Under the pieces are notes generated by a model. The model did no database searches and was not told the origin of the DNA. It was given only the letters and a program-made list of their open reading frames with translations. Both the position numbers and the translations under genes were made by a program. From Ochromonas danica (Eukaryota > Sar > Chrysophyceae > Chromulinales > Chromulinaceae), in NCBI GenBank assembly GCA_015146655.1, contig VKHL01000040.1, forward strand, positions 124,001 through 188,000: a DNA stretch of 64,000 bases, given 5' to 3'. This document shows, in pieces, positions 22,534 to 64,000 of the stretch (position 1 is its first letter; each line of letters begins with the position of its first letter).

Positions 22534-24788
22534 ATGAATGCCAGCAGTAATGCGCTCTTTCCTCCCGGCACCATAGAGATTATACCAGGTAAGACACAGC
22601 TATACTTTTTCTTTGGTTTATCTAATTGGCACGTTGACAATAAATCTTGTGATGAAATCGATTAAACGAAGAGAAATTGTATTTCACTGGAAACAATCCC
22701 TCTGCCGAGGCTCGCAGCTCTTCTTCTTCCTGGATACCCTTTGTCAATGATGATTCATTAGTATATACATCTTTTTTCGCGGATTTTGGACCCCTTGATA
22801 TCGGATTAACATATAAGTTCTGTAAGCAATTGGATGAAGCTTTGAAGAAAGCTGATCGGCCAGTTTTGTATTATTTTGGCCAGTCAGAACACTCTCGCAG
22901 CAATTCTGCTGTGTTGTTAGGTGCATATATGGTAATGCGAATATCCTCATCCTTGCTGCTGTGTCCATTTGCAATGTGATGTGAACTGACTTGTGTCTGT
23001 TCAGATTTTTGTGCGGCAAGTCAGTGTGGAACAAGCTTACGCGCCTTTCATTGGCATTCAACCACCTTTTGTACCATTTCGCGATGCTGGATTTTGTGTA
23101 AATACTTTTCCTTTAACTGTTCTCGATTGCATGCGAGCAATGGATAAGGCGAGAAAACTTGGTCACTTCCAATACTCCACTTTCCGCTTGCAGGTATGGG
23201 GTATCGCCTACATACCATATGCGTATCATACATATTACATGTTTGATGGCAATCGTTGTGTAGGAATTTCAAGATTTAGGTAAGCTCCAAAATGGAGATG
23301 TTTCGTGGATCATCCCAGGGCGATTCATAGCCTTTGCTGGACCACTTGCGAAGTAAGTTTCATGAGCTCATATATTGGAGAATACCCGATTAAAAGTTAT
23401 ATCCCTGTTTCTTAGTCGTCGCAAGCTTGGTGCGGGTCTTTATACACTCAGTCCCGCTCAATACGCGGCTCTTTTCCAGTCTTTGCGTGTTGGTCTAGTT
23501 GTGAGATTCAATGACGTTTGCTACGACAAGCGAGTCTTCACTTCCGTTGGAATCAAGCACGTAGATCTTTATTATGAAGATGGCGCTAATCCTCCTGACA
23601 ATATACTGAATACGTTTCTTTCGCTTTGCGAGAGCACCTTCATGCAACAAGGTAATGCTCCATCGTAATTCACTTCATCTCCATTGTTGAGTTGCTTGGT
23701 TTGCGCATTTAGGATCTTCTTCAAGCGGGAGTCCCCTTGCGGTAGCAGTGCATTGCAAAGCGGGACTTGGACGCACTGGCACCAATATTGCAGCTTATAT
23801 GATCAAGCACTATGATTATACAGCACGGGAAGCCATTGCATGGTGTAGACTGTGTAGACCGGGATCCATAGTAGGTCCTCAGCAACAGTACTTGGTATTT
23901 CAAGAGGCCATGCTTAGACAGCAAGGAGCACTCTTTCGAGAGAGGTTTCGTCTTCCCAATCAGCTCCCAGCCTCTGCGTCTAAAGTGGGGGCTTCTGTTC
24001 CGAAGAGTGCTTTATCACAATCGAGTTCATCAACTCTAAGACCTTCTTCTGCTGCTGCTCTTGCCGGCAAGAATGGAGTTTTTCTAACTCAAGATTCAAC
24101 CACGACTCGTCCTTCGAGCTCAGCAGGTGCACAAGCCGACACGGGCAATAAGCACGTGTTGCCCCTTCTCTCAGCAGAGCAAGGGGTAAGGAGGGTACCT
24201 ATGGGATCAGTGGATGAAAGCAAAGAAGGTCCCACTGCACCGAGCAGTCTCAGCAGTAGTGGAACGAGCAATAGCAGCACCAGGTACATATCAGTAGGAC
24301 GTGATGGTATCCCGAAAAGACCTCACACAAGCAATGGTCTCAAAGACGCCAACTCAACGTCGCGTATAATTACAATTAGTTCCGATGGGTTGACAGGCAA
24401 GTCGAGCGCACGAGGTGTCTCAGTGTCTAACTCGGCCGTGACCGGTGTTGTTAAGGACCAGCATACTCCAATTCCCTCCCTTGAACCCACTGTTGCAGTA
24501 GTTGGGCAACGTCGAGCATCGTCAGCTGCCAGGACTCGGCGAGGCAGCAACTCCCTTTTATCAGTTCCCTTGTCCGAATCCTCAAATAACACCTTGGCAA
24601 GGAAAGGCAGTCGTTCGGCTTGGGAACAGTCGTCGCTCGAAAACAAGATGAACAATTCGGCTAACGCAACCACTACTGCAGCAGCAACCTTATCAACATC
24701 ATTCGGTGGCACAGCTATGGTAAAGCGCGCACCTTCTCCGATGTTGCGCATCGGTCAAGCCTCTGCAGGCCGTTCTTTGCGCCGCTGA
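22534..24788 (+). CDS. CDC14-like dual-specificity phosphatase
   Basis: Cdc14 enzymes remove phosphate from CDK-type Ser/Thr-Pro sites at mitotic exit and act at basal bodies in flagellates. Six exons: 22534-22588, 22672-22931, 23005-23193, 23264-23352, 23416-23651, 23713-24788; 634 residues. Every join keeps frame and rebuilds conserved sequence: [24 protein letters not shown] (N-terminal domain), [38 protein letters not shown], then the catalytic domain with [16 protein letters not shown] and the P-loop [12 protein letters not shown] (Cys about residue 291), then [13 protein letters not shown]. About 300 C-terminal residues are Ser-rich and disordered, typical of regulated Cdc14 tails. An in-frame ATG at 22411 adds 41 hydrophobic residues; I prefer 22534, where Cdc14-like sequence begins. 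Confidence 0.92.
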
Positions 24789-25389
24789 AATTGTTAAAAT
24801 TGCTAATATGGATGATGACACATCTTCCATTCCTCTGTTTGGTTTTACTTCAGATCAAATATGTAGAAATATGGAGTACTGTATATCATATAGGGTATAA
24901 TTTGTATATGTACTTTCATCGTAACCCATTAATCTGTACAACCACTTGTCCATCTCCTAGAACCCACTTCCTAGAACTGCTAAAACCCTAAAGAGAACTC
25001 CATTTCCAATTTCTCAGTCTTTTTTCGAATCGATTCATTTCTCATAATGGCTTCAGTAGATCAATTTGAGAAGTTGGTTCCTCAAGCACCAAGATAGATA
25101 AAAGAATTCGGTGTATTCCCTCAAGACATTAGATATCACACATTAAAAGAAAGTTTGGGTGAACCATGAACTAACCATTTATCTCTCTGTACAACGGGAA
25201 TTAAACCCATTAATCGTCTGGGTTTAATTAACCGACCTACCTCTGTGGAATTAAACCCAGTCTATTTCTCCCATTCTTTTGCGAGAAGAAGCCCACCCAC
25301 CGCGGGCAGCGCAGGCCGTGGCAAGCCCCACAGACCAGAGACCCTGCCCAAATCATAATCCTTTAGAACCCAACCTCCGAGTTCAAATT
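24789..25389. other. Upstream region of helicase gene with inverted repeats
   Basis: About 600 bases. An ATG at 25047 opens only a 16-codon frame (possible upstream ORF). Three alternating copies of attaaaccca / tgggtttaat lie at 25200-25260. No full gene. Confidence 0.4.
25200..25260. repeat. Alternating inverted repeat (attaaaccca)
   Basis: attaaaccca at about 25200-25209, its reverse complement at 25219-25228, and attaaaccca again at 25250-25259. The last two form a perfect 12-bp stem (ctgggtttaatt / aattaaacccag, 25218-25229 and 25249-25260) with a 19-nt loop. It lies about 130 bp upstream of the helicase start and could be a regulatory or hairpin element. Confidence 0.7.
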
Positions 25390-28300
25390 ATGCAAGATCA
25401 ATCTTCCAACTCGAGAGGAAGAGGTCCTCGAAGTGGTCGAAATCCTGGCCGACATCAACAACCACGTCGAGAGAACAGAGAACGAGAGGATAGACGACCA
25501 GAAGAAAAAGTCCACACCCCTGGCGCTTACTTCTTCAGATTGTGCGAGGCAACGCCCAAACCCAATGAAAATCTAATTCGTAATCGAACAGAGGCGAATA
25601 GATTTTTTGAGTCCATGATGGAGTTTGAGGAGAAATCATCCTTGGTGCACAGGCTTTCCCTCCCCGGAGGTGAGCCACCACCTGTTAGCACCCTTGACTA
25701 ATCTCAGAGTTTCCCATTGTACTATTTTGGCTTTATTTTATTTTATTTTATTCTATTTTATTTATTTTATTTATTTTTATTTATTTTTATTTTGGGCGGA
25801 TTTTGTGCTCAGGGTTGGCCGCGCTGCAACAAGCGATTGAAGAGCTGGACTACGCCAACCACTCGGCAGTACGACTGATGCTGAGCGCCTTCGAGGAGTT
25901 GAGCAAGAACTCATCGGGATTGAAGAAAACTGGAGCTCGCAAGATCTTAGCGGTGGTGTACACTATCCCGTCCTTTCTTGAGACACTGACCAGTTGCTTT
26001 GAGAGTCGCTTGCTTGGCGAGAGCCATGCCTCAGTGACTCTCTGGTTTCTACAGGAGGCCATTGATGCCACTCATAATCGAAATGATCTTCTATCGCATG
26101 TACAGAAACTTTTGAATGCGATACGTGAACGGGCTACACCGCATATGCGCGCGTCGATTGACAGTATGAACTTATTGGGGTCGCCTGGTGCAGGGCGACA
26201 GTATTCTGCAGAAGAGTTGCGTCTGATGCAGCCTTTGCACGACAACGATTTCCCTGAAGACTTCAAGAAGGTTTCTATATTTCCGACCCTGGACGAGCTA
26301 AACGCTCCTTTACAAGCCGCACCTTTGATGAGAGAATGGATGGGCAGTCCAGATGCTTCGTTACTCAAGTATCTTGATAGACAATTCCGTTTCTATCGTG
26401 ATGATATGATCTTACCTTTGCGTGAAGAGCTTCTTGAAACATTCAGTGCGACTTCTAAAACTGGCAAGAAAAGGATGCGATTTGCTGGTCCGCGTATTGC
26501 AAAGTTTTCAGCAGAGCGTGAATTTCATGTGGTTGTTAACCTTCAAGTTCCGCAGGAGCTAAGCAAAGCTCTAAAGAAATGCGCCACAAATAAAAAGGCT
26601 GAAGCATTTTTTAAGCATGATGTTGGAGAACGCATCTTTGGCTTCAACAGCATAGTGCTCTTTATTTCGAACAATCGCCTTGTGCAGCTGGGAGTGGTTG
26701 TGGTTCCGCCAGTAGCAGATGTGGAGAGTAAAAGAGATCAGCCAACCATTTCCATTGGTGTGCGGTTTCAAGACAGCGCATTGAGATCGCTGATAGGACA
26801 GCAAACAAACCTTATCTCAGAGTACGCGATTCAAGCAAGGACGACAGTGTTTTCTCACGAACCTGTGCTACATTGTCTGAAAGGTGAGATCGCTGATGTT
26901 CTAATACCTATCATATGCTGCAGAGTCTCACTTAAAAGTTGCTTCAGACATTCGAGAGGACAGCTATGTGCACTTTTCTCTCTCCTTGACGAGAAAGTTA
27001 CTTGAAGATTCCCCTTCTGTCGTTGAGCTTGATCATAACCCTTCCATACCCCAAGACATTAAAGACAAGCTACGATCGGACCCCTCTCAATTAATTGCTG
27101 CTGAACAGGCACTGATGCGGGAGGTCTCGATCATTCAGGGTCCCCCAGGCACAGGAAAAAGCTATGTGGGTGTTCAACTAGTGCGAGCGTTGTTACGAGA
27201 GAAGCCTTCAACTCGAATATTCTGTTTGTGTTACACCAATCATGCATTGGACAGCTTTTTAGAAAGTTTACTGGACAGTGGTATGAGCCAGGACCAAATT
27301 GTTCGTCTTGGCAGCATATCCAAAACCAGCGAGAGAATTCAAGCGTGCTGCATTCAAAGACGCGAGGAAAAGCCACAATTTGACAAAGCACAGAGTCGTT
27401 TATATTTCTCGTTAAAATCTGAGATCAAAGAGGCAAGTAATCTGGTTGATAGTAAAGCAAACGAAATTCAGAATTATTTGACGTCTGGAAACATCGGGTG
27501 GTCTGAAATTAGCAGGTTTCTAAATTTTCATGATTACAGTGCTTTCAAACAATTCATGGTAACAGAACGAAATGACTCCACTGTTGTGGGCAAACGTGGA
27601 AAAGCAGCAAGCAAGGATTATCTTTGGGTTCAGTGGAACAGAGGCAATGAATTACCTGCGCCATTTGCTTCCCTTACTCAGCATCTAGCAGAAACAGAAA
27701 ACTTGTGGAGGTTGTCTAAAGAGGAAAGAAGAAGTCGTAAGGAAACTTGGATGAAGCGATATCATGAGGATAATGCAGGTTCTTTCTTGAGGAGTATCAA
27801 TGAATTGAATGATTATTGTGAGCAAATCTCCTCACTTCGCGATGAATCCAAGCTATCCGCCATTGACTCGGCTCGTGTTGTTGCATGCACAACCACTTTT
27901 GCAGCTAAAAATCACAGCTTCATTGAGTCGTTTGCTCCTAATGTGATGCTGGTCGAGGAGGCTGCAGAGATCCTTGAGTGTCATATCATGACCAGCTTGG
28001 TTCCTTCTGTTCAGCGACTTATCATGATTGGTGACCACCTCCAGCTTCGTCCAAAGTTGGAATCTTATGCATTGCGCACAGAGTCAGGCTCGGGAATAAA
28101 CTTTGATCGAAGCCTGTTTGAAAGGTTGGTATTGAGTGGCTACCCATATGCCACTTTGGCTGTGCAGCATCGCATGAGGCCCGAGATTAGCAAGCTCATC
28201 CGACGCACCTACCCTGAATTGCGCGATGCTTCTAGTGTATTAAATCGGAGTTCTATCAAGGGTTGTTACAAGAATGTCTCTTTCATAAACCACTCTGTGC

Positions 28301-31300
28301 CTGAAGGAGGTCAATCAGGTGATGCAGCATTGCTGGCTGCTCATGAAAGCAGCTCCAAGTATAACGACTACGAGGTGGCTATGGTCTTAAAAATGGCAAA
28401 GTACTTTTTGCAGCAAGGCTACAAATGCGAAGATATAGTCATATTAACCCCTTATCTTGGTCAATTAATGCGTATTCGCCAGGCTATTCGGCGAGAACAA
28501 TCCTCCTTGTTTCAAATTGAGATAGGTGAGAGGGATAAGGAAGATCTATTGGCTGAAGAAGACGAGGAGGAAGATAATAGGGATCAATCTGGCTCGCTTG
28601 AGAAGAAAGCGCCTTCTTCGACATTGCGAGTGGCAACAATTGATAATTTCCAGGGAGAGGAATCAAAAATTATTATTACTTCTCTCGTGCGATCTAACCA
28701 GACTGGTGATATTGGCTTTGTATCGGGAGCCGAGCGTGTTAATGTGCTCATGTCTCGAGCAAGAGATGGATTTTTCATCATTGGTAACGCTGAGACTTTT
28801 CGAAACAGTCGCTCGAGTCGCGGAAGGGCAGTTTGGGAGCATGTGTTTGCTGAACTGGAGCGACAAGAAGCGATATTGAGTGGATTTCCAGTATTATGTG
28901 AGATTCATGGTCGCAAGCAATTGATTGAACGACCCGAAGAGTTTGACGAGAAGTGTCCTGATGGTGGATGTGACCAGCCCTGTGGAAAACCTCTCCCTTC
29001 TTGTCCAAATGGTCATCTTTGTTGGAAGAGATGTCATCCTCTCGGAAACGATTCAGTTGCTGTTCATGAACGCATCATGTGCATGACTGAGGTGGAACTC
29101 CAATGCAGTCGTGGGGAGCACAGCTATTCCAGAGCATGCCATGAAAGCAACAAGCGATTTGAGTGCACGAAGATGGTTAAAGTGCAGTGTCCCAATGGCC
29201 ACACAGTGAACCTTCAATGCCGCAAAAGCGATGCACTTGGATCAGTGAACTGGATTTCGGAATGCAAGACATGCAAAACGCTAGAAGAGGAGCGAAAGAA
29301 AGAAGAGGAGAAAACGAAGAAAGAAATGGATGCGCTCGCTGCAAAAACCGAGCAGATGCAATTAGCGGAGGGCCGTTTGAAATCTGAGGTCGCAAATGAA
29401 GCTACAAAGCGACAAGAATTGCAGAAGCAATCATTGCTGCGGGCAAACATGGAAGCTGCGGAGGAGCAGAAAGCATTGTTACAACAGAGGAACGAAGAAC
29501 TATCGCAATCCATTAACATCGGTAGTAAGGCTCGTCAAACGAAGATGCCTGCTCCCAAAAAGGATACGCGTGGTGTCTCGGGAGGCAGCAGCAGTGGTAA
29601 TGGTCATTTTGGAGACTTCAAGGTCACTGAAAGCTCTACTCCTCCATCGTTAATACTAGCTCCTCCTTCTACCGTTTCTTCCACAAAAGCTACTTACGCT
29701 CCTCCTTCGCCTCCTTCCCCTCCTTCCCCTCCTCCAGTTCCTTCCACGAAAGCTACCTACGCTCCTCCTTCCCCACCTTCCCCTCCTCCTATTTCTTCCA
29801 CGAAAGCTACCTACTACGCTCCCCCTTCTCCTCCTTCTCCTCCCGTTTCTTCTGCAAAAGCTACCTATTGTGCTCCTCCTCCTTCTTCTTCTTCTTGTAG
29901 AGAGAGTCTGCCTGCCAAAAGCACTTCTTCCGGTAGTTCACAGGTCAAAGATATTTTACGTTGCTTTAAAGACAAGAATTATGTTGACGCATTTAAGCTT
30001 ATCAAGGCAGCAGATGAAACTTTGGTAGCGGAAGAGTTGAACAAAGAAGACTTCTTGATGAGGCATCGGGTTGATCTTGTTTGCTTCTACTTGTTGTGCT
30101 ATGATAGTCTCGGCGAGGGAGACGGGTTGAGGCGCGCCTTTATAATGCAGGAAATACTCAAATCCACGGATAGGTTGGTATTTCCCGAGGAAAATGTGCT
30201 TTCTCGAGATCTTGTCAATCTCCTGTTGGACTTCACTGCAGTGATGTTATTCTCCAAGCTTAAAGATACTGCCTACTTGGTATTTAAGCATAGTGCTAGC
30301 TATTTATACAGTGCTACAAGGCTACCAGATCAGAACACCTTGTGGACCACAGCTTGGAAGGAAAGCGTGGAGGCCTGTGAACTAAAGGCGCAAGATGAGA
30401 TTCGCAACTCTCCCAAATCTTCGGCTCCTTCTGCTTCCCCACCTATCAGCAAAGGTGACCAACTCAAGAATAATTGGAAGAAGCTCCTTAAGGTATATGG
30501 CGTGGAAGAGAAGAAGATCAATGCTGTGGATAGTCTGCTTCACATGACTGGTTTGCCCAAGGTCAAAGATAAGTTCTTTGATTTGTTCAAATTGATGCAC
30601 ATCTCCAAGGAACAGGGCCGCGACATATCTTCCTCCAACTTCAACACTCGATTTGATGGCAATCCTGGTACCGGAAAAACTACTGTCGCCAATCTATATG
30701 CTACCTTTCTCATTGAGGTTGGAGTGCTCCCTGAAGGGGCGGGGTTTTTGAAAAAGACTGGCTCCGAGTTAGCAACTGGAGGTGTGAGCGCGCTTGAAAA
30801 GGAGTTGAAGGAAATGAAAGAGAAAGGAGGAGGGGTCGTCTTCGTAGATGAAGCCTATCAATTGAATAGCATGGAAGGGCGGAGGATTTTGGATTTCATC
30901 TTGGGACATGCGGAGCGCATGAAAGGAGAGTTTGGATCCTTGGTGTGGATTTTTGCAGGCTATGCGAACAAGATGGATGAACTATTTCAATATAATGTGG
31001 GCCTCCCATCGCGCTTCCCACACAAGTTTCTGTTTGAGGACTACACTGATGAAGAGCTGTTGTCTATTCTCAAAGGGATCATGGAGAGAGGTGGTGACGA
31101 TGTCCCTCCACCTGTTGTTGCACCACAAAAGGAGAAGACAACAAAGCAGAAAGCTCCTAATTTGTCTATGAATAACAATAACAACAACCCCTATAATAGT
31201 GCTTATTATGGTGGCGGGGGATACGTATATGGTGGAGGAGGAGACGAGCAGAGCGACGAATGGGGTAATGTTTGGCGGTGGAATTATGGCACGAATACTT

Positions 31301-33915
31301 TTGAGGATGACTATGGAAATGTCACTGGCTATGGGCCTTCCGGACTTGGCGAGCAACGCAATCCACTCGTTTCTTCCAAAACAAACACGATGTGGTTGTA
31401 CGATCGCAGAAGACAGCTTTGGTATGAACAAAGTAATCCTTCCAAAACCTCGCGATCTTATCCCGGAAAGCCTATTCCTGTCGATACAACTGTTAAGAAG
31501 AAAAAGAACCCTTTCGTTGCTAGTGATGAAAAATGGCTGAGGATTGCAGTGCGTCGCCTGGGCCGATTGCGTGGTACCGTGGGGTTTGGCAATGCACGTG
31601 CAGTGAGAAACCTATTCGATTTGAGCCATAGTCGCCAAGTGGCCCGCATTGACCGAGAACGCTCGAGCAATCCACGTGTAAATATCTTTGAGTTTGTTCG
31701 GGATGATCTTTTGGGTCCAAAACCTTCAAAAGAGGTTCTTCAACGGTGCCCTGCATGGCAACAGCTTTTGAAGATGGAGGGCTTACAAGCTGTCAAACAT
31801 GCTCTAGACAGTTTGTTTGATCTGGTCGTAGTTAATGCTGAGCGTGAAGAGCGCGAAGAGCCGCTGCTCGATGTCGTGCTAAATCGGATCTTTCTTGGCA
31901 ATCCTGGCACGGGTAAAACGACAGTCGCTAAACTGTACGGTGAAATTCTAGTAGATCTTGGATTGCTGTCGAAAGGTGAGTTGGTTTTGAAGAGCGCATC
32001 TGATTTGGTAGGCGGTGCCATTGGTCAGTCTGAAGAGATTACCAGAGGAATTCTAGAGCAAGCGAAGGGGTGTGTCTTGGTAATTGATGAAGCTTACGGT
32101 CTCTATCAATCTGTAGGAAGTGGAAATGACCCTTATCGAGAGGCAATTATCAACACCCTGGTGGAACAGATTCAAGGCGTTCCTGGAGAAGATCGTGCTG
32201 TCTTATTGTTGGGATATCAGGAACCCATGGAAACGATGTTGGCTAAATGCAATCCTGGACTTTCTAGAAGATTTCAGCTTGAGAATGCTTTCCATTTTGA
32301 AGACTATGACGATCGTGCTTTGTTGAGTATTTTGCGCAAGGCTGTTGAAAAGAGTGGTCTTCGCTTGGATATGGAGACTGCAATATTTGCCGTCGAGCAG
32401 CTTGCGAAGAGTCGCGCTAGGCCCAATTTCGGCAATGCTGGAGCTGTCAACAACCTGTTATCTATGGCCAAGCAGAGAATGCTTCAAAGAAGGATAAACA
32501 ACGGACAACTTGTTAAGGAGGACTTTGTGCCTGCTGGATACAGCGACGAAGCGATGGATGTCGATGGTCTGCTCGATCGCCTTGTGGGGTGTCAGAATAT
32601 TCGAAGTCAGCTACAAGAGTATCGGATAATTTATGAGACGTGCCGTAAGAGAGGAAAGGACCCCAAAGAGCTCCTGTCCTTCAATTACATCTTCACTGGA
32701 TCACCAGGCACGGGCAAGACCACAGTGGCTCGCCTGCTGGGCAAGATGTTCTCATCTCTGCAACTCATTCCTTTCGAAGAAGTCATTGAGTGTTCTGCAT
32801 CGGATCTTATGACAGGTTATGTCGGACAAACTGGCAAACAGACTCGAGAACTATTCGAGAAAGCTAAGGGGAAAGTCTTGTTCATTGATGAAGCATATCA
32901 ACTCAATCCTGCTAAAGGAGGATCGTTTATGCAAGAAGCTATTGATGAGATCGTTAAATGTCTTACACATGAGAACTACATGAATAAGATGATTGTCATC
33001 TTGGCCGGCTATGCTAAAGATATGGACGAGATGTTAGATGCCAATCAGGGACTGCGGTCAAGATTTCACGAAACAATCCATTTTGAAGATTTCGATGAGC
33101 AGACCATCCACGACCTAATCTGCAAAGGCTTAGAGATGTCTAAGGAGGGCAGAGAGAACTTGCCTGAGATCGCTAGAGAGCTGCGTTGTCTGAGAAGCTT
33201 CGCCAATGGTAGAGATGTGATGACGTTCATCAAACGCGCTAAAAGAGAAAGTATGTTGCGAGGTGATGAGAGCGGTCAAGTCGTCCTGCAAGACCTTCGC
33301 CGAGCCTTAGAGAAGATGGTGAAAGATCGAGGAATGGAGAAGGCTGCCCCTGCTCGACCTTCTAGTCACGTCGAGGCTCCTGCACTTCCTCAGATGACAC
33401 TTGCAGCTCGCATGAATCCTCCCAAACCACCGTCTGTTCGCACGGTTGTACGCCACGAGACAAAGGTGGATGAAAGTGACCCAGTGGAGGCTAATGAGGC
33501 AGTGGAAGGCGGCGATTCTTTGGAACAGGGCTTTTTGAATATCCTGCAAAATGAGCTTGACAAGAGAGGCTTGAATAGCGCCGAAGGTGTTGCCAAGCTG
33601 GCTTCTTATTCTCGTGACGATCCATACTTGAAGGACTTGGCCAATGCCATGAGTCAAGCACTGGGAAGATCGCCACAAGAGATTATGGACTTGCTAATTA
33701 AGTGGCAAGGAGATCAGCACAAAGTCCAAGAAGAGATGGAGAAGCAAAAAGAAGAAGAAAAGTTGGCTCTCAAACAGAAGCGAAAAGCGTTGGTGCCTAT
33801 TTGGAGGTGTGGAGTGTGCGGAAGGGCAGACAAACCTTACATCGCATGCTATGTTCAACCGTACATTGTCCGCTATGAGGAAAGAGACATAGGACCCTCG
33901 GGGAAGGCCATCTGA
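25390..33915 (+). CDS. NFX1-type UPF1-like helicase fused to three CbbX-type AAA ATPases
   Basis: A giant 2780-residue protein. Exons 25390-25669, 25813-26883 and 26924-33915; introns of 143 and 40 bp. The N-terminus is Arg/Gly-rich (GRGPRSGRNPGR), RNA-binding in style. The SF1 helicase has IQGPPGTGKSYVG (Walker A, about 522), VEEAAEILE (about 794), GDHLQLRPK, QHRMRPEIS, TIDNFQGEES and GAERVNVLMSRAR (about 1056). NFX1-type Cys/His repeats follow (CDQPCGKPLPSC, HLCWKRCHP, about 1110-1220), then a coiled coil (1236-1315), APPSPPSPP repeats (1356-1440), and three AAA modules with Walker A GNPGTGKTTVANLY (about 1694), GNPGTGKTTVAKLY (about 2109) and GSPGTGKTTVARLL (about 2376), each with its own Walker B and FEDY/FEDF motif. 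The C-terminal WRCGVC..ADKPYIAC may bind zinc. Similar helicase-plus-SpoVK/CbbX proteins are known to me from fungi and oomycetes; ZNFX1 relatives act in RNA surveillance and antiviral defence. Confidence 0.93.
25733..25795 (+). repeat. T/A low-complexity tract in intron 1 of helicase gene
   Basis: Degenerate (TTTTA)n/(TTTA)n tract inside the 143-bp first intron; it may serve as an extended pyrimidine/T-rich acceptor region. Confidence 0.8.
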
Positions 33916-45309: not shown

Positions 45310-48300
45310 ATGGCATCAAGTCTTGCACCATCCTCCAATCCAGCCTATCAGACGTTGCCTGGCCAGCGTGAAAGCGAACACGAGATCGAACTGCCGTCCA
45401 GACAAGAAGATGCAGTGGTATTTCAGTCTGTTGATAATGACATTGAGATGAATGGCGAGTCACTGGCAGTCAAAGCAATTCCCTCTGATAAAGATGAGTT
45501 GCACCTGTTACAAGACGGTAACCTCGCAGAGCTCGAGAAACTGATGGACGATAGAAAGCACTTGTTTCGTCCACAAGATATAACAATAGAGTTCTACGAC
45601 CTTAATTTCTACACGTTTGTTGATCCCGAGCGACAGATCGTTACAGTGTCTTCGGTGTTGTGGAAGTTGTTGACATTCTGGCAACCCGCTCCACAGAAAC
45701 GAGTGAACATCCTGGCTAGTGCTACAGGCCGCATATTACCCAGAAAGATGACCCTGCTGTTAGGTCCTCCAGGATCTGGCAAGTCCGGTAAGGTTCTGCT
45801 ATGTTTTAACAGTACCCTGACTTACAGAAGCTGACGAACTTGTCGACAGTGTTGCTCAAGGCTTTGTGTGGCAGGCTTTCCTCTGCTGGCAAAGCGAAGC
45901 TCTCCGGTGATGTGTATTACGATGGAGATAACATAAATGAGAACAAGTTTCTCGTTGGGAAGGTAGCAGACTATATTGAACAAGGCGATACTCATCAAGC
46001 GGTGCTGACCGTCGATGAGACATTGAAGTTTGCTTGGTCGTGCACTACTGGAGGCAATCATAGTTATGCGCGTGCCAAAGATGATGAAGCAGCAATACAA
46101 CTCAATAAAGGAAACGAGAGCTTTGCGGCTGTACATAATACTATTGCCACTTTGGGCTTGAACAAATGCAAGGACACGTACGTTGGCAATGCTGCCATTC
46201 GCGGAGTTAGCGGTGGTCAAAAGCGACGCGTCACAATAGGGGAGATGCTCGTATGTCCTCGATCGGTAAGATTGTTTTACAAGCGCAAGCGTAGCCTTTG
46301 CACTGATTATTGCTGAATCTCATTGTTTGGTTTGTCAAAGATCAAGATGATGGATTGTATTACCAATGGCCTGGACACTGCGACAGCCTACGATATTATC
46401 AAGGCTCTTCGAGTCATGAACTTAGCACTTGGGAACACGGAAGTCATTTCCCTCCTACAGGTAAGCTCCCTAATATTGTTAACTTTCCGGCACTGATCCC
46501 TAACCCTGTCTCTCCAGCCGCCACCTGATGTTTACAACCTCTTCGATGAGATTATCCTACTTAGTGATGGTTATATTATTTATCATGGCCCTCGTGAAAG
46601 AGTTATGTCTTATTTCCAGTCCTTAGGCTACCAGTGCCCAGATGATGTAGACGAGGCGGACTTTCTCCAAGAGCTGCCTACTCCTGAAGGAAAGCGCTTC
46701 ATTGTCAAGCCTGGTGCACCACATAAGCCCATCGAGTTGGTGAGTGCTTGGAAGAGTTCGGAAATATACAGTCAATTGTTGGCTGAAATGCGCTGCGGCT
46801 GCGCTGAAGAAGCAAAGAAGCTGTCCGCTAACAGTAACAAAGTTTGGTATGCTGATTACCTTGAAATGCATCCTGGAACCTTCTGGTACTATTTCAAGTT
46901 ATGCCTTATAAGAGAGTTTCATGTCGTCGTGAGAGATCCTGCTTTCTTTGCTGCTCGCTTTGGACAGAGTCTTTTCATGGGAGCCATTGCTGGTTCCCTT
47001 TTCAACAATATTGGGAAAACAGAAACGAGTACCATGAACGGCTTCCTGTTCAACACCATGTTATTCTCTGCTCTCGGTAGCTTTTCCATTTTGCCTGTTA
47101 TTTATGATCAAAAGGCAGTCTTTTACAAGCAGAAAGACGCTTACTTCTTCCCCACGTTGGCCTACGTTTTTACGCAGAACATTGCGATCTTTCCCTTGCA
47201 ATTAGCTGAGTGTGTAGCTTATGGAACTATTGTATACTGGTCTGCTGGACTTTCTGATGACTTTGACGGATCTCGCTTCTTGGCCTATTTGGCTCTCTGC
47301 TTGAACTTTTCGGTTATGATGGGGCAGTTCTTCCGCTTCTTGTCGTGCTGCATAGAAGAGATGAAGACCACTATTCCTATATCTGGTCTCATACTTATGA
47401 TTATGATCCTCTTTAGCGGCTTCATTCAACCCAAGTCGGTCATTTCCGATGGCTGGATTTGGTTCTACTGGATGAATCCTGTGTCGTGGGCTTTGAAAGG
47501 AGTTACCATCAATGAGTTTACTTCACCTCGTTACAACTTCTTGACTTGTGCGAACGAGGCTTGTACTCGCAAGGAACGTTACGGTGATAGTGTTCTGAAG
47601 TCTTATGGTAATCCAACCAACCAGCAGTATATCTGGTATTCGTTTGCCGTCATTGTTGGAATGAACATCCTCTTCTTTATACTCACGTACTTTTCTATGG
47701 AATACATAAAGTCTGTTCCTGCTCCAATCCCTCCCACTCGTGAAGATGATGGCAGTGCCGTGAAAGAAAGCCAGGACAGCAAGAAAGATAATGCTCGTGC
47801 TGTGATACCTGTTGCTAACGAGAAGAAGGAGGATGGATGCGATTTGGAGTCTGGAGACATTCCTCCAGCTGTTGAGGTTTTGTCAAAGAGCGAAAACAGC
47901 TACAAGGTCGATCAGCTTCCTTATGACCCAATCTCCTTTTCCTTCAGGGATGTCTGGTACACTGTTACTTTACCATCAGGAGATGATATTGATTTGTTGA
48001 AAGGAGTCAGCGGCTTCTTTGAGCCTGGAACCATAACGGCTCTCATGGGATCAACTGGAGCAGGTAAGACAACTTTGCTGGATGTCTTGGCAGGGCGTAA
48101 GAACACTGGAGTTATTCGAGGAGAGATGTATCACAATGGCATTCCCAAGATCGACGCCTATTTCCGTCGCATCATGGCCTATGTTGAGCAGTTTGACACG
48201 CTCCACGCGAAAAGCACCCCTCGCGAAGCGATTGAATTCAATGCTATTCTACGCCTGGCTCCCAATATCACAATGTAAGCATGTTAACTGCTGTGTCCTT

Positions 48301-50482: not shown

Positions 50483-53400
50483 ATGGATGATTTCAGAAGA
50501 ACTGTAGACCCTTCGACGCGAAGGAAGACGAACAGTGAGCTCTCGGAATTGAAGTCTTTGCGTCAAGCCTATCAGGAGGCCAAGACTGCCTTGGACAAGG
50601 CCGAGGCGGTGCTGGAGCACGAGAGCCTCGCCTTAGACTCCGCTCTGGCCTCTTTAGAAGGCGGACGCAATGCCTTATCCGAGGTTCAGGCTGAGGTGGA
50701 CGCAGACTATTTGCCTGAAGGCGCACAGCCACGCGCACGAATAGCCCAACGAGACAAACTGCTGCTGGTAAGAGAGAACTGCTCCTCTTCACACCCTCTC
50801 TCACTCACTGAGTCTGTGGTGTGTTCTGGTAGAGGGTGAGTCAACTGGAGGCAGCCTATGAGGCACAGAGAAGGGCCGCGGAGAAAGCGCAGCAGGAAGT
50901 GCACGGCAGCGAGAAAGCCTTCGCCTCGGCTGACAAAGCCTTGGCTCGCTATGCTGAACGCCTTGAAGATATTCTAGCTGCGAAGCAAACCATTGAAGAA
51001 CTGGACAAAGAAAAGTAAACCACCCCTTCTTTCCCTCCCTCCCAGTGCTAATCGTGCATTGTTTCGTGTTGGTGTTAGAGCTCGAAGAGTGGCCCGGCTC
51101 GAAGCTTCAGTGAAGGCTCGCAAAGAGCGAACCAAGCGATTACAAGAAGAAGCAGCTGCTGCTCAGGCCCAGGAGCTCGCAGCGTATGAACAAGTGCGCA
51201 AGGAGCAGGTGCAGCAATTAAATCAACAGGCCCGCCAACTGGTTGCCACTGCAGCCGCCAACACCGCGGAGGTGACACAGAATGTGAAGAATTTATTTGA
51301 GAATCAGCAAGCTGACCGTGCGGAGGCTGTCCTGGAGCTGAAGGCCAATCTTGGCGCTTCACGTGCTGTGGTGGCTTCTCTGGCTGACAAAGCTGTTAGA
51401 CGAGCTGCTCAGCGGCAAGAAGCACTGGAAGCTTCGAAGGCAAATCTCCTTGCACAAGGAAAGAACCCTTATGTAGAGTTTCGTAAGCAGGAAGTGGAAG
51501 AAGAGGCTCGAAAACGAGAGGCGAAGTTGAGAGCCTCTGTCGAAGAGAAAAAGGCGAACTTGTTGGCCACCCTGCATCGAGAGCAGCAGACAAGAGACAA
51601 GGTTGAGAAGACGCGTCGAGAAGCTGAAGTGCTGGAGAAGGCTCATCGTGAGTCGTTGGGACGTCGAGAGGTGGAGGAACGCACTCGCCAATATCTCTTG
51701 CGCACCACTTCTGCACACACAGAAGTGCTGGATCCTTCTGGAAGAGCTGCCCGCATTGATCCTTCGCAAGTGACCGACCTCGCAGATCACTCACTTGGCC
51801 TTGGTCAGGGTTCACGTATCCCTGTTGACGCCCGGCAGCGTATCACCAGCAAACTCGCCGACCGATTGCACCTGTCACGAGATGACTTAGGCAACTACCA
51901 ACATCTTACTTCTGGGCTAGAGAAGCGCACTGCAGAGACCATGATGGCGGTGGAAGGGTCTAGTGGGGCAACAAAAGCCGTGGCGGGGAGCGAGGACAGC
52001 ACTGTAGGCGTTGAACCGATTGCCGAAGAAGTTCGCCTTTCTCAGCGAGAATTAGCTCAATTGGAAGAACTCGGACAGGGTCTTGGGCGCCTTCCAGGAG
52101 CTGCAGGAGCTACCATGTCAATCAATCTTCCTGCTGGCGGTCAGAATGGTAAGCAGCTCCTCGCTCTTACTGCTCACTATGAAGGCAGCGCGGAGGCTGT
52201 CCAGAAATCCTCCACCTTTGATGCCACTGGACCTCCCAAGTATGCCCCCGTGGCCCTCAGTCGCTTTGAAGAAGATGCGTTACAGAGGGCTAAGGAGAGA
52301 CAAGAGACTCGTCTTCAACAAGGTCAGACTCAGATAGCAGCTGGTAAAGCCTTCACTGGACCATCCTTCTCGAGTCAACCCGCAGAGATCATTTTCCAAG
52401 ACTTCACAGTCGGACAGAGCTATCGAGAGTCGGCGCTGTTGACCAACGTCTCCTACACTTTCAACTCGTGCAGTCTACTGCCTCTGGCTGAAGAAGTGGA
52501 AGATTTCTTCTCGCTGACCTTCTCCCCACCTGGCAGACTTTCTGCTGGCATGACTTGTTCACTGGGAATCGTTTTCAACCCACAACTTGAAAAAGACATT
52601 GAAACTGTTATTAGCTTTCGTACAGAGACAGGACCGGTGCATATCCCACTCCGTTGCTACCGCAAGAGATGCGCACCGCGATTGGAGGTTACAAGTTTGG
52701 ATTGTGGAGAGGTTTTCATTGGTGAAAGTGTCGAGAAGAAGTTGATCATTCGCAACTCCGCTGCTTTGCCGTGCGCTTTTGTACTCGAGGCCATGGATGA
52801 TGAAGAAGAAGTAGGAAGAGAAGTGGAGGGAGAGGGAGAGGGAGAGGGAGAGGGAGAGGGAGAGGGAGAGGGAGAGGTTGAAGAGAAAGCAGACCAGGAG
52901 AAACCTGCAGAACAGAGCGAAGAACCCGCTCAGCTCACTCTGAAGCTGGAGAGTGAAGAAGCAGGAGGAGAAGGAGATGGTATCTTGGTGCAACCTGCGG
53001 GGAGTGAAGAGGTGCTGGCTGACCGTCTCCAACGGTTGACAACTGCCGCCTGGAGAGCCAAGCAGGCTTTGCAGCCTCAGCCTTTCCGTCTCCTCCCTAG
53101 ACAGGGTCAAGTGGACGGCTACAATACAACGTCACTTCACCTCCGATGTGCGCCACTGAAGGAGGGAGTCATTCAACGAACTTTTCGTGTGACCTTTCTG
53201 AATGTTGACGAGGCCCGCGATTGCGCACGATTAGCTCCTGGGGACCTGCTGGCACGCGAACAATTCTTGACTGTTACAATTGCTTGTACTCCTCATCCTT
53301 TGGCCGTGAAGGAAGAACTAGTCGATGTGCGCTGTCTTCTGCATGATCGCTTGTATCGCAGGCAAATCACGGTGATTAATCGAGCTGCCATTGCTCAACG

Positions 53401-56400
53401 ACTTGCAATTGTTGTACCCCGTGCTTTTAGACCGTATGTTGAAATATCTCCAGCGCAGTTATTGTTGGAAGCCAGTGGGCGGCAGAGTGTTTGTGTGCGC
53501 ATCTCCCCACGAGAAGAGATGTTAGTACAGAAGGGAGTCATGCCATTCACCATGCCGACACCACCTTTCTCCTCCGCGGCTGTGATAGCTGTACCAATCG
53601 CCGTGCAGCTGAGCACCTCTTCAGGGAAAGCTGGAGAGAAAGTACCTCTCCATGCACTTCCGTTGCCAATCTACTTCACTTTACGTGCCAGTGTTACTCT
53701 GTCTACCATACATCTCTCTCAAGATGTGTTTAACTTTGGGTCGGTCTATGTGGGTCAGCGGGTGATACAAGAAGTCGTACTTACCAATGCATCACGTCTA
53801 CCTCAGAAAGTGTTGATGACAGGCCTACCGCGCGAGGTGAGCATTCTTACCCCTCCTGAGGGCCAAATGGTATTGCTGCCTTTAGAACAAAAGACATGTG
53901 TGATTGCCTATGCCCCACGCTCAGCAGTGGCCTTGGATAATCAACTTCGCCTTGTCACCTCCTTGAACGATCGCTACGTTGCCAAACTCCGAGGAAATGG
54001 CGTTGACCCCCCTCTACTTTTCAGCACTCCGGTGATCTCCATGCGCACTACCCATCCCGGACAGAAAGTTGTTGCTAGCCTCTTCGTGACAAATACTTCA
54101 TCACGTCGTCAGACCTTCGAGGTGATGTTGCCTCCTTCTCGGAGGTGCTGGCTGACCATCTCTCCGCGAAGTCTTCAATTATCACCAGGTCAACGGGCCC
54201 GTTTGGAAGTTGTCTTTGCACCTCCTCGCGATCTCCTCGATCTGCTTCCTTCCAGTACAAGTGGTCAAAGTGATCGCTTTGATACCTTCACTCCTGAAAG
54301 CTACTACAGCGCATCCTCTTCCTCTCCCGAGGTTGATAAGGAGGCATTGCAGGTCGAGTGGGATTGGACTACAGGCCCTTTAGCGGGATTGCATCGAGGA
54401 GTGAGTGTCTGTGGCGAGGTGACCTGGGCTCTGCCTCAGCAGACCTCATCTTCCAACTCTATCATCACTCAAGATAATGTGAGAGAAGGTGAGGAACCAC
54501 AAAGTAACGAATTGGAGCAGTCTGGACTGTCTACACAGATACTCCAAGAGCAGCAGCAAGAAGAAGAGAAGAAGAAAGACGAGGTTCGTTTAGATGTTGA
54601 GGATTGGGGGATTCAAGGCGGATGGGATCTGCCTGTGTTGCTCCAGATGCGCGCAAGAAAGCAATTGCAAGCAGATAGTGATCCAAGTGATTCCACTTCG
54701 GTCATGTCGATGAACACCTATTCTGAAGGCTCTGCACCTGCACCATTATACTTGCAGATCGAGACAGCGGTGATTGCTCCTCAGTTCACTTCCTCAGTGG
54801 AGGTTTTAGACTTCCGACAAATGGCAACACAAACACGATCTGTGCTAGCATTGCGTCTGACTAATCATCTTCCCTCCGAAACGCTGCATTTGATTGCACG
54901 AGGATTGAATGCTCTGGGGCCATTCTCACTCGTCTTCCCACTTCCTCCACTCTTGCCTATGCAGACTCGACAGATTCTCATCGCCTGCCAACCATCAGAG
55001 CCGGGGTTAAACCAAGAGATCTTGGAGATCCTGCCCGTACACGACCACAACAACGCCAGTAGCGAACAAATGGCTGCCTGGGGAGAAGATCCAGCACCAG
55101 GTAATGCGAACCACTTGTTTTCTACTCCACTTTGATCAATTCCATCATCTTTTGTTTGTGTGTTGTAACAGAGCGAGGTGGTAATACACCCTATGGGCAT
55201 CGTGTTGAAGTAGTTCTGCGAGTTGAAGGGTTGCAACCTACGATCTCATTGCGTGGTCTATCTGCCCCTCCGGCAACCTGGGGCCCGCGAAATGGAATAC
55301 TTGACTTTGGCCTCTGTTGTGCGACTACATCCTCAGGAGTCATGAAGCAGTTCACTGTAGTGAATACCTCCTCGTTTCCTGTAGAAGTCGAGGTCGTGCG
55401 CATACCAGGGGAAGGGTTACCTCCTTCACAGCAGCAGCAATTGATAGAGCGCACTTCCTCGGGGATGCCCGTGTTTGCCATCCATCCTGTCCGCCTCCTT
55501 CTCCCTGCGCAAGGCAGTGCCAATGTAGAGGTGATCTTCCGAGCAGACATTCCACGGTTCCAACCCTACCGCGAAGATATACGGTTGCGTGTTGGAACTA
55601 CCGAAGAGGTGCTGACAGTGGGTATCATAGGGCGGGCTGTTGACCGCCTCTTCTCCCTTGAGACTGCGGTTTGTACAGACCATCCTTTCGCTAACACCTG
55701 GCTACGTGCGACCGCAACCACGGAGGATCGCCTCGTAGCACTTCGAGGCCAGCAGGAAGTACGCGACATTGTCAAAGCCAGCAGAGCGGCCTTGTACCTC
55801 ATCAAAGCGGAAGAGACAGCGCCTGTTGCTTCGCAGGGCAACGACAAGAAGAAGCCAAAAGCTCCTGTTGCCCCGACAGGAGATGGTGACGATGCTGCTA
55901 AGCCCTCAGAGAATCAAGGTGGTGGAGCAACCACCCCCACTTTGATCTTCGCAGATCCCTTCGCAGCGACTGCAGACTCTGCCTCCTATACTGTCATACC
56001 ACCCGGCGGAAACACTGCTGGTGGTAAGGCTGGCGGCAAGAACAACACTGCAAGTGCTGTGCCTGCAGTGGAGATGCGCAAGCAAGTCAAGTTGCTGCAG
56101 ATTGTTACTGCTCAGCGCAATAATGTCCTAGGTGGGGGAGCGGCAGGAGCGGGTAGCTTTGAGGTCGTTCTGGGTAAGGCTGCACGAGACAGTGGCTTGT
56201 GGTCCGTCAATCCGGACAAAGGCGCACTAGCGGAAAACACAGTCATCGCTAATATCGAGATAGTCTGCTGCCAGCCTCAGCCGCGTTTGTTGGGAGGCGT
56301 GGTGGTGGGCTGCTGGCAGACGTTTGACCTTGACGTCGTCATTCGAGGCGGAGCACTGGATGGCTCACAGCCCGAGGAGATCATACAGCCTGTTCGCCTC

Positions 56401-61831: not shown

Positions 61832-61843
61832 ACAAAACAAAAA
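61832..61843 (-). terminator. Pol III terminator T-run
   Basis: On the minus strand TTTTTGTTTTGTT directly follows the 3' end of the 5S rRNA gene. Confidence 0.7.
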
Positions 61844-61959
61844 CGATCGTCACGAGGGCTTCGCACGTGGTCACCCACCGTACTACTGGCCTCGCCTGAG
61901 CACGCTTAACTTCCTAGATCTGACGGGTTAGGGTGCAGTAGTGCTAGTATGAACGATCA
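61844..61959 (-). rRNA. 5S ribosomal RNA
   Basis: Read on the minus strand the sequence follows plant-type 5S rRNA almost block by block: CATACTAGCACTACTGCACC, CCGTCAGATCT, AAGTTAAGCGTGCTCAGGCG (A box and loop), AGTAGTACGGTGGGTGACC (C box) and GAAGCCCTCGTG. The ends pair as helix I (GATCGT at 61958-61953 with ACGATC at 61850-61845). A T-run (TTTTTGTTTTG) follows the 3' end, as expected for a Pol III terminator. Length is about 116-118 nt; the exact ends are uncertain by one or two bases. The internal promoter boxes look intact, so it may be functional. Confidence 0.87.
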
Positions 61960-64000
61960 TGTCTGTTCCTCTCACCACCTCACTATACAAACTGTACTAC
62001 CACAACCGCTTTCTCCTTTGGCTTCATGAAGAAGATGAGAACTTACTCAAATGAGCCATGAAAATATTCCACACTATTATTATTACTGGGATGTGCTGGT
62101 CATGGATCACTCTCTGACTCCTAGAGAAAGGTTTGTATTTCTCTTCAACAATGCTGACGCTCTTCTGGCTGGGCTAGTCCTCACAGAGGGTCAGAGGGTA
62201 GCGATGAAGAGTGAGTGAGGAGGACAGTATTATTAGAGAGAGAGTGAGAGACTCTCCTAGACAGATTGAAGATCTGGAGGTGAAGGATGATGTCTGGTGC
62301 TGCACTCTGTCAGTGCTCGTCTTCTCCCTTCCCGCCATGTCGCAGCAGCCTCCTCTGGGAAGCGACGGCTTTGGCTTGTAGACTACTTCGTTTACCACGT
62401 GATGATTGATTAGTGATGGTGCAAGTAGCCGCGCAGTCGCCCACTGGTCGGCCCATCCAGTCTCTGGTCAGTCCTTCGACTGAGTCGAGAGGAGGAAGAG
62501 CTGATGACGTGATGCCTTTCGAATGAGTCCGTCAACTGAAGAGATAAAGACCTCGACAGCAGTGTTTCTGGCCTGGCCTATGCAGTTTCCTTCTCATTCT
62601 GATGCACAGTATGTATACCCTTCCATTCCGTGGCTGCTGCTATCACAATCTACCACTACGTATACTGCAGCAGGGATGTAGGGAAGTGAATACCAACGAT
62701 GTCGCCTCATCTCATCTCATCTCATCTCATCTCATCTCATCTCATCTCATCGCCTCCTCAGTCGCCATGGGGTCTTCTTTGCCGCTCAGCAGTCACTCAG
62801 CTAGGGTCGTTCGAGAGCCTTTCGAGATGATAGCGACGAGACCAACAAGCTGCTTCTTCATACCTTTTCCTCCTCTATGAACTAACATTCTCTCTATGAA
62901 GAGGCAGAAGAGCTGCGAGGAGGTGAGTGTGCGCCATAGCCATTGTGAGTATCTCTTCCATTTCCTCTGTGTGACACCAACAACTCATCCTGTCATTATG
63001 TTACAGAGCATACTATCATTGCAGTAGTCGCTCTTCTATCTCCATGGCTTGTTCTAATCCGCTACGACCTCATCGCCCATGGAGAGGCAGGAGGCTGCGA
63101 TGCTCCCACAGAAGAAATGAAGCAAGGATTCTTTGGCCAAATGCTCGTCGCGCTTCTTGACCTTAGCGATCTCATAGATTCGCTTCACATGGATCTTGCC
63201 CGCGATATCATGGCCAGGTCTACTCATCAGTCGTTACCTCGGATGAGACAAGCGAGAACAATGGAATGTATGCGGAATTTTCATCTATGTATCTATGCGG
63301 AATGTATCTCTCTCACCTTACTCTCTTGCAATGTCCTGCTGGTCGAAAATGGGAGAATCGAATCAAATGAGTTGGCGAAATCAAACACAATGAAGTGCAG
63401 ATTGTTGGTAGCAATCAATCATCATATCACTCCATCAAGAGATGAGACAGGAAAGACAGTCTGCTGGGAATAAATAACATTGAGACCAGTAATGCAGTAT
63501 TGAACAGAGAATCATCTCTCTCTTCCAGAAATTGTAGAGCGGAGCAAGAATAAGAAGACAATGAAGCAAAAGCAAAGCACAGCTTTCCATGCTTCAACCT
63601 CTAAGGTCTCTAATAACACCATCCCGCCACTACTACCTGATAATGATGATAGATAAAGTAACAACCAGGATTCCAGTGGCTGAAAGACATCTTTACCACC
63701 AAGAGAAATATCCAATACCTTGAGATGAATCTCACTCTCAATGAGGGTGAGCGTACATATTAGTGACGATTGCTTGGTTTCGATAGGGAAATTATGTCCG
63801 AAGTTGACGAGACTTGTAGTACAGCATGCTTATACATATTAAAATGATAAGATCTTTAGCCTCCTGTGTGAACAATGTCCTAATCTGGTGCATTTTTATC
63901 TTGATGGTGAGATCTTTATGAGGGATAAACGGTAAGATGACTATTGCCAAGTGATCATCTCTCATCAAGATGGTTAGATCATAGCTTAGAAGAACTGTCA
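61960..64000. other. Intergenic with possible gene remnants
   Basis: About 2 kb with no intact gene. A minus-strand stretch near 63730-63570 reads LDISLGGKDVFQPLESW and LLETLEVE, with leucine-rich spacing similar in style to the broken gene at 61.1 kb, and may be a remnant of another family member. The plus-strand frame at 63117-63473 has no recognisable domain. Confidence 0.35.
62706..62750 (+). repeat. (CTCAT)9 minisatellite
   Basis: Nine perfect tandem copies of ctcat. Confidence 0.95.

Follow-up and report, generated by a model that had tools for sequence, protein, structure and literature searches.

In humans, ZNFX1 and RNF213 both act in cell-autonomous immunity and are linked through one E3 finger, the RZ finger, which carries ubiquitin-ligase chemistry in both proteins according to two papers (PMC12075652, PMC11959080). 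The second of these also gives human ZNFX1 six NFX1-type zinc fingers, and ZNFX1 is described as an RNA-activated E3 in a further report (PMC13270118). Another group of ATPases, the SpoVK/CbbX/EccA clade of AAA proteins, is treated in a 2023 preprint (PMC10659427), which presents the characterised members as narrow-target chaperones and gives, as signatures of the clade, a GY at sensor 1 and an Asn upstream of the first arginine-finger position. According to the same preprint, the clade includes poorly characterised eukaryotic proteins with a superfamily 1 (SF1) RNA helicase domain, for which a role in RNA processing is predicted. Here, we describe a gene of the chrysophyte alga Ochromonas danica (25390-33915, forward strand, within a window of 64,000 nucleotides, contig C40:124001-188000) whose product joins a ZNFX1-related helicase to three AAA modules of this clade, and compare it with a second, RNF213-like protein of the same genome (31.2 Mb, 337 contigs) that carries a homologous triple cassette.

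The gene model consists of three exons (25390-25669, 25813-26883 and 26924-33915), which give 2780 codons and translate without an inner stop. The two introns, inferred from the reading frames, are 143 nucleotides (nt) (25670..25812, +, GTGAGC..GCTCAG) and 40 nt (26884..26923, +, CTGCAG at the 3′ end and GTGAGA at the 5′ end), both with GT..AG ends. An in-frame stop at 25252 lies upstream of the start ATG, and exon 1 (25390..25669, +) encodes an Arg/Gly-rich N-terminus in the translated model. A first-pass annotation, made from the DNA letters alone, had described one 2780-codon gene with two tiny introns, four Walker A motifs and an SF1 helicase, and this description holds: Walker A motifs are found at residues 523 (helicase), 1696, 2109 and 2376, and a domain search of the three-exon translation (best 25 of 37 Pfam and best 25 of 42 NCBIfam families) recovered the helicase together with three CbbX/SpoVK-type AAA stretches in both databases. 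We consider the identity of the protein and its fused nature to be very probable.

The helicase (27079..28809, +), assigned to the UPF1-like/ZNFX1-type SF1 group by Pfam, solved-structure match and motifs, lies in exon 3 (26924..33915, +), which runs from the helicase core through the stop codon. It contains a Walker A motif (27139-27162), an EEAAE box (27943) and the motifs QHRMRP (28165) and DNFQGEE (28630), all on the plus strand, and is matched by Pfam AAA_11 (1.2e-26) and AAA_12 (5.4e-39). The top solved-structure match is ZNFX1 (9q9z, 1.2e-78), with EccA1 (1.4e-32), CbbX (8.1e-28) and UPF1 (9e-28) lower, and the helicase core is thus nearer to ZNFX1 than to UPF1 among solved structures. 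Exon 2 (25813..26883, +), which encodes a ZNFX1-like N-terminal region, also aligns with 9q9z (residues 136-228, 93 residues, E 1.7e-5, phmmer). We infer that its helical part is ARM-like; Pfam gave no match to an ARM-type N-terminal domain, and a single-sequence structure model of the exon has helices at an unreliably low confidence (predicted local distance difference test, pLDDT, 42).

The three AAA modules occupy 30496..31690 (AAA1, Walker A at 30658), 31747..32547 (AAA2, Walker A at 31897) and 32548..33312 (AAA3, Walker A at 32698), all on the plus strand. Pfam AAA matches in three stretches (2.7e-46), as do the NCBIfam models SpoVK (2e-126) and CbbX (9.8e-97), in agreement with the three CbbX-type ATPases originally annotated; the whole-protein NCBIfam scores, which are sums over three modules, lie under the equivalog cut-offs (420.4 vs 422.95 bits for SpoVK, 323.6 vs 459.25 bits for CbbX). 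Both clade signatures, GY and the upstream Asn, are present in each module, as in the CbbX/SpoVK/EccA chaperones, from which the window protein differs in having three modules per chain fused to a helicase, whereas the bacterial tandems sampled here mostly have two, up to four, and show no such helicase in the flanks covered. Walker A, Walker B, sensor-1 GY and the [S/R]RF arginine are kept in all six algal modules, that is, those of the window protein and of its RNF213-like counterpart. The pore-loop aromatic is confined to AAA3 in both proteins (Tyr and Phe, respectively). Among bacterial relatives (the best 80 of 523 loci from a genome-contig scan), 160 of 172 modules have a Tyr, Phe or Trp at this site, and the 12 without it include three first modules of four-module proteins and perhaps some misaligned rows. 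Tyr is also found in the plastid CbbX, nuclear CbbX, SpoVK and Actinomadura rows. The other arginine-finger position is variable in bacteria too and is uninformative. Because AAA3 alone bears the aromatic residue, it is likely, in both proteins, to be the unit that grips the substrate. A structure model of the cassette, for which the window sequence was combined with 26 bacterial rows, has a mean pLDDT of 75.3 and a predicted template modelling score of 0.45. The pLDDT is mostly 80-95 in the modules and mostly below 50 in the stretch 215-354 within AAA1, where a low-confidence insertion lies at about 31096-31515; the arrangement of the modules in this model is not trustworthy.

When the genome was searched with the SpoVK profile and the best 15 candidates were scored, 12 matches were obtained. 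Three of these are in the window gene and three in one frame of contig C37; C193 has one CbbX, C65 has two pieces of a nuclear CbbX, and the remaining three matches are weak (E 3.6e-5 to 1.8e-4). Over its 6247 open codons, the C37 frame (C37:98312-117052) encodes an RNF213-like AAA core with a vWA domain and, at the C-terminus, a triple CbbX cassette. The first part of the protein, in which the vWA domain lies, aligns with RNF213 structures (4.2e-38 to 6.6e-36), and its second part holds the three AAA modules at the end of the protein, which share 39% identity with the window protein over AAA2-AAA3. For 2297 residues in the middle, no RNF213 structure matched at E up to 1. The protein ends with a Cys/His/Trp-rich motif that has no family match, and nothing else in the genome matched its last 117 residues at E up to 10. 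The RNF213/mysterin family is that of the second carrier, from which the window protein, itself not a member, is distinct.

Two trees were used to compare the modules. The first, made by a quick method from 72 module rows (all six modules of the algal cassettes, rows for CbbX and for SpoVK, and modules of 23 of the 80 bacterial loci and of five further loci), paired AAA2 with AAA2 (96, starred) and AAA3 with AAA3 (95, starred), with both AAA1 rows joining the AAA2 pair in an open group of four (84). A more careful tree of 63 rows, made after the removal of nine (seven on long branches, one other deep row and a duplicate of plastid CbbX), paired the window and C37 modules by position, with 100/98 for AAA2 and 98/99 for AAA3, both starred. 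A single origin, in which one ancestral triple cassette came to reside on two different carriers, is probable from these sequence comparisons, with AAA1 as the unsure part.

Pfam found no RZ or RING domain in the window protein, of which the zinc piece and the C-terminal piece were scanned, or in the C-terminal 317 residues of the C37 protein (E up to 1), nor in two large parts of the latter (all 11 families of the first and the best 25 of 32 of the second); the C37 frame also showed no RING-type cysteine pattern. The C37 protein departs from RNF213/mysterin in having a vWA domain and no detected RING or RZ. A search of the whole genome for RZ gave one match, on C39, under the cut-off (21.2 vs 27 bits), and three prokaryote controls, none of the controls being known to carry RZ, also gave sub-cut-off matches. 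Since no C-terminal RZ finger was detected in the pieces scanned, we call the window protein ZNFX1-related and not a ZNFX1 ortholog. It resembles animal ZNFX1 in its helicase core and aligns with it in an N-terminal segment and at the start of the zinc region, but in the scanned pieces it has neither RZ nor, by Pfam, an NFX1-type finger, and three CbbX AAA modules are present instead.

That zinc region is a Cys/His-rich stretch (28921..29290, +), the first part of which aligns with the first zinc region of ZNFX1, within a phmmer match of 8.7e-20 that includes the helicase end. Pfam detected no zinc-finger family in it, and a genome search with PF01422 (NFX1-type finger) is uninformative, having given zero matches in the genome and in the controls alike. 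The "zinc repeats" of the first-pass annotation, the weakest part of that observation, thus survive as an alignment with the start of the ZNFX1 zinc region and not as a Pfam family; the zinc part is short and degenerate. It is followed by a charged, probably coiled-coil stretch (29270..29520, +; read from the translation), a proline-rich linker with a 54-nt (18-codon) tandem repeat (29660..29892, +) and, ahead of the cassette, a segment that is probably helical by eye and has no Pfam match (29941..30390, +). Beyond the cassette, a C-terminal charged stretch (33313..33915, +) ends with a short Cys-containing motif, WRCGVCG, at about 33802; it gave no family above cut-off and no PDB match below E 0.03, and its best other match in the genome has an E of 0.54.

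Our tentative proposal, which we rate as a serious possibility short of an even chance, is that the window gene encodes a ZNFX1-related RNA helicase in which a triple CbbX/SpoVK-type AAA effector replaces the RZ module, this effector being shared by two sensor types in defence or in the quality control of ribonucleoproteins (RNPs). The idea of an effector swap comes from the position of the cassette, which is that of the animal ligase module, its ligase side depending on absence of detection; a shared effector is suggested by the presence of a homologous cassette in the RNF213-like protein that the genome also encodes. In such a protein, the ARM-like region and the helicase would bind and move along long or foreign RNA, as may be expected from ZNFX1, and the zinc, coiled-coil and proline-rich parts may cluster or tether it. 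By analogy with CbbX and SpoVK hexamers, two chains with three AAA modules each could form a six-membered ring, in which the pore-loop aromatic of AAA3 would grip a protein of the captured RNP and pull, and AAA1 and AAA2 would give the ring its ATP-driven geometry. The same cassette would then serve both sensors as a common effector, in cell-autonomous defence or in RNP quality control.

That the cassette works as an unfolding effector downstream of an RNA sensor, in either of these settings, is a real possibility, and we advance it with caution. More broadly, and more doubtfully, giant ATPases of the ZNFX1 and RNF213 types may, in this alga, share an interchangeable triple CbbX unfoldase cassette instead of RZ, so that the output of defence would be protein extraction or unfolding and not ubiquitin coating; if true, the sensor motors would be the conserved part and the output exchangeable. 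The earlier suggestion of RNA sensing coupled to AAA remodelling, in an immunity-like design, stays conjectural, and it gains weight because the other carrier is RNF213-like, a member of a family that shares its E3 module with ZNFX1 in animals. The C37 gene makes the finding more interesting than had been thought at first, and the helicase fusion taken alone is less novel than had been thought.

Several observations weigh against this proposal. The AAA1-AAA1 pairing in the careful tree is weak (90/56, unstarred, two long branches meeting), and the approximately unbiased test, with the three modules of one protein kept together, did not reject independent triplication in the case of the window protein (p 0.124) and did so only marginally for the C37 protein (p 0.044). 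The cassette was detected once per type of N-terminus, in one genome. Short RZ fingers may be missed or split by introns, the genome search for RZ had no positive control genome, and an E3 module of an unrecognised kind may exist, as neither C-terminus has a recognised function. Moreover, an immune role cannot be assumed for RNF213-like and ZNFX1-like proteins of algae. Finally, a Foldseek search with the cassette model ranked Cdc48/p97-type unfoldases, which have housekeeping roles too, first (two-domain alignments, root-mean-square deviation (rmsd) over 15), ahead of CbbX (3syk_B, rank 20, TMt 0.66, rmsd 4.7).

This ranking, with Rix7, Drg1 and NVL next to Cdc48/p97 among the first, fits a different account, in which the protein is a housekeeping RNP remodeller whose UPF1/ZNFX1-like helicase and Cdc48-like unfoldase remove proteins from mRNPs or from stalled complexes, without any particular tie to immunity. 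The RNA-processing role predicted for eukaryotic members of the clade in PMC10659427 points the same way. However, the RNF213-like nature of the other carrier, and the occurrence of relatives with and without the cassette, which suggests fast-changing genes and not a fixed machine, are suggestive evidence to the contrary, and we regard a housekeeping remodeller as somewhat unlikely.

A regulatory or structural ring, which would assemble the helicase into oligomers or condensates and thread no substrate, would be consistent with AAA1 and AAA2 lacking the pore-loop aromatic in both proteins and with the long low-confidence insertion in AAA1. Such a role is improbable, considering that Walker A, Walker B and the arginine finger are kept in all three modules and that the AAA3 aromatic is present in both proteins. 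It is far less probable that two genes have been joined through assembly error or mis-modelled splicing, although the gene model is known from DNA alone and a low-complexity linker lies at 29.66-29.89 kb. Exon 3 is a single frame of 2329 open codons (chance about 10^-54 at the base composition of the window) that continues through the suspected junction at 29.6-30.4 kb, the length of the linker repeat is a multiple of three and keeps the frame, and the homologous C37 cassette is likewise an in-frame fusion, in one 6247-codon frame; the claim of one gene is upheld in this way. An assembly chimera is rejected on the open frame and the second fusion locus, and plain bacterial contamination on the introns and the eukaryotic-type neighbours, CFAP74 among them (ten open reading frames, ORFs, scanned). 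The least probable account is that the cassette descends from the Rubisco activase CbbX of the alga itself and has to do with carbon fixation in the plastid; we reject it on the careful tree, in which the plastid-type (C193) and nuclear (C65) CbbX rows, although both are present in the genome, group with an Actinomadura protein (100/99, starred) and away from all six cassette modules.

With regard to these two CbbX loci, the nuclear gene (C65:51312-52641, -) has two exons and a signal-like N-terminus, and the other lies on a low-GC, plastid-like contig (C193:40001-49230; 24.6% GC in the piece read). As we read the translations, these two loci and the CFAP74 gene of the window suggest a flagellate with a plastid of the red lineage.

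A link to defence was also sought with PADLOC, using exon 3 of the window gene and the C37 cassette as input. The helicase part is of the MkoA type, matching two Mokosh MkoA models, PDLC03920 (7.3e-65) and another (6.6e-39). The best stretch spans 596-1098 of the 1112 profile positions and, in exon 3, residues 30-645; the window cassette falls outside the match. For the AAA parts, similarity to defence ATPase models, IetA and TRIP13 among them, is weak (4.3e-14 at best). At the level of such profile comparisons, the Mokosh match shows a kinship of motors, not of function.

The helicase-AAA fusion alone is not new, since the same combination with SpoVK/CbbX-clade AAA modules is already in print, in one sentence of PMC10659427; the text behind this comparison gives no module number, organism or tested function. 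The annotation of the locus as "under-described" is right for its function. In the open-licence literature, no paper was found that links RNF213 with CbbX, RNF213 with SpoVK or Mokosh with ZNFX1, and no RNF213-CbbX fusion appeared among the papers listed by broader searches. Fungal genomes carry helicase plus CbbX proteins as well.

For each of the two carriers, the genome has relatives in which the cassette was not detected, which offers a ready comparison. A paralogue of the window helicase (C3:243079-246290, -) is 49% identical to the window protein in the helicase and 41% in exon 2. It too changes frame where the window gene has intron 2, and a GT and an AG can be made out there by eye. 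Its helicase frame ends at the start of the zinc region, where splicing could extend it, and C3 has no SpoVK match; a minisatellite and a short run of unknown bases follow this paralogue. The second RNF213-like copy (C37:53751-63494) has 93-96.5% DNA identity to the cassette-bearing gene, seen from 53751 to about 63421, and the similarity stops at position 113628 of that gene, about 380 bases before AAA1. The frame of this copy stops near 57.7 kb and is open again at 58.0-63.5 kb, owing to a shift or an intron. There is also a distant third RNF213-like frame of 2506 codons with no SpoVK match (C132:35207-36808). Apart from these, an SF1 helicase frame of 2289 codons (C155:50892-57758, -) contains numerous Cys/His repeats and has an end that looks IBR-like by eye; no Pfam family scored above cut-off in the C-terminal parts scanned.

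Among the 80 best bacterial loci, 78 have at least two Walker motifs per frame (67 with two, 7 with three and 4 with four), a count biased towards tandems by a query that covered two modules. None of the 1692 ORFs found in these loci (100 codons or longer) matched a two-sequence profile of the window helicase at 1e-3, and therefore the fusion of helicase and cassette looks eukaryotic in this sample. Scans of viral contigs with the cassette query A1, the helicase query A3 and the RNF213-like core gave no relatives, and a scan with query A5 gave at least 34 loci, in which the matches are about 1.1 kb long at most.

Other features of the window include a piece resembling a dual-specificity phosphatase, which lies upstream of the gene and scores below the Pfam cut-off (23748-24788, +), a transporter with ABC2_membrane, ABC_tran and a PDR-associated domain (46605-48278, +), a CFAP74-like ciliary protein, which is a sign of a flagellate (50993-55132, +), and a 5S rRNA gene (61842-61960, -).

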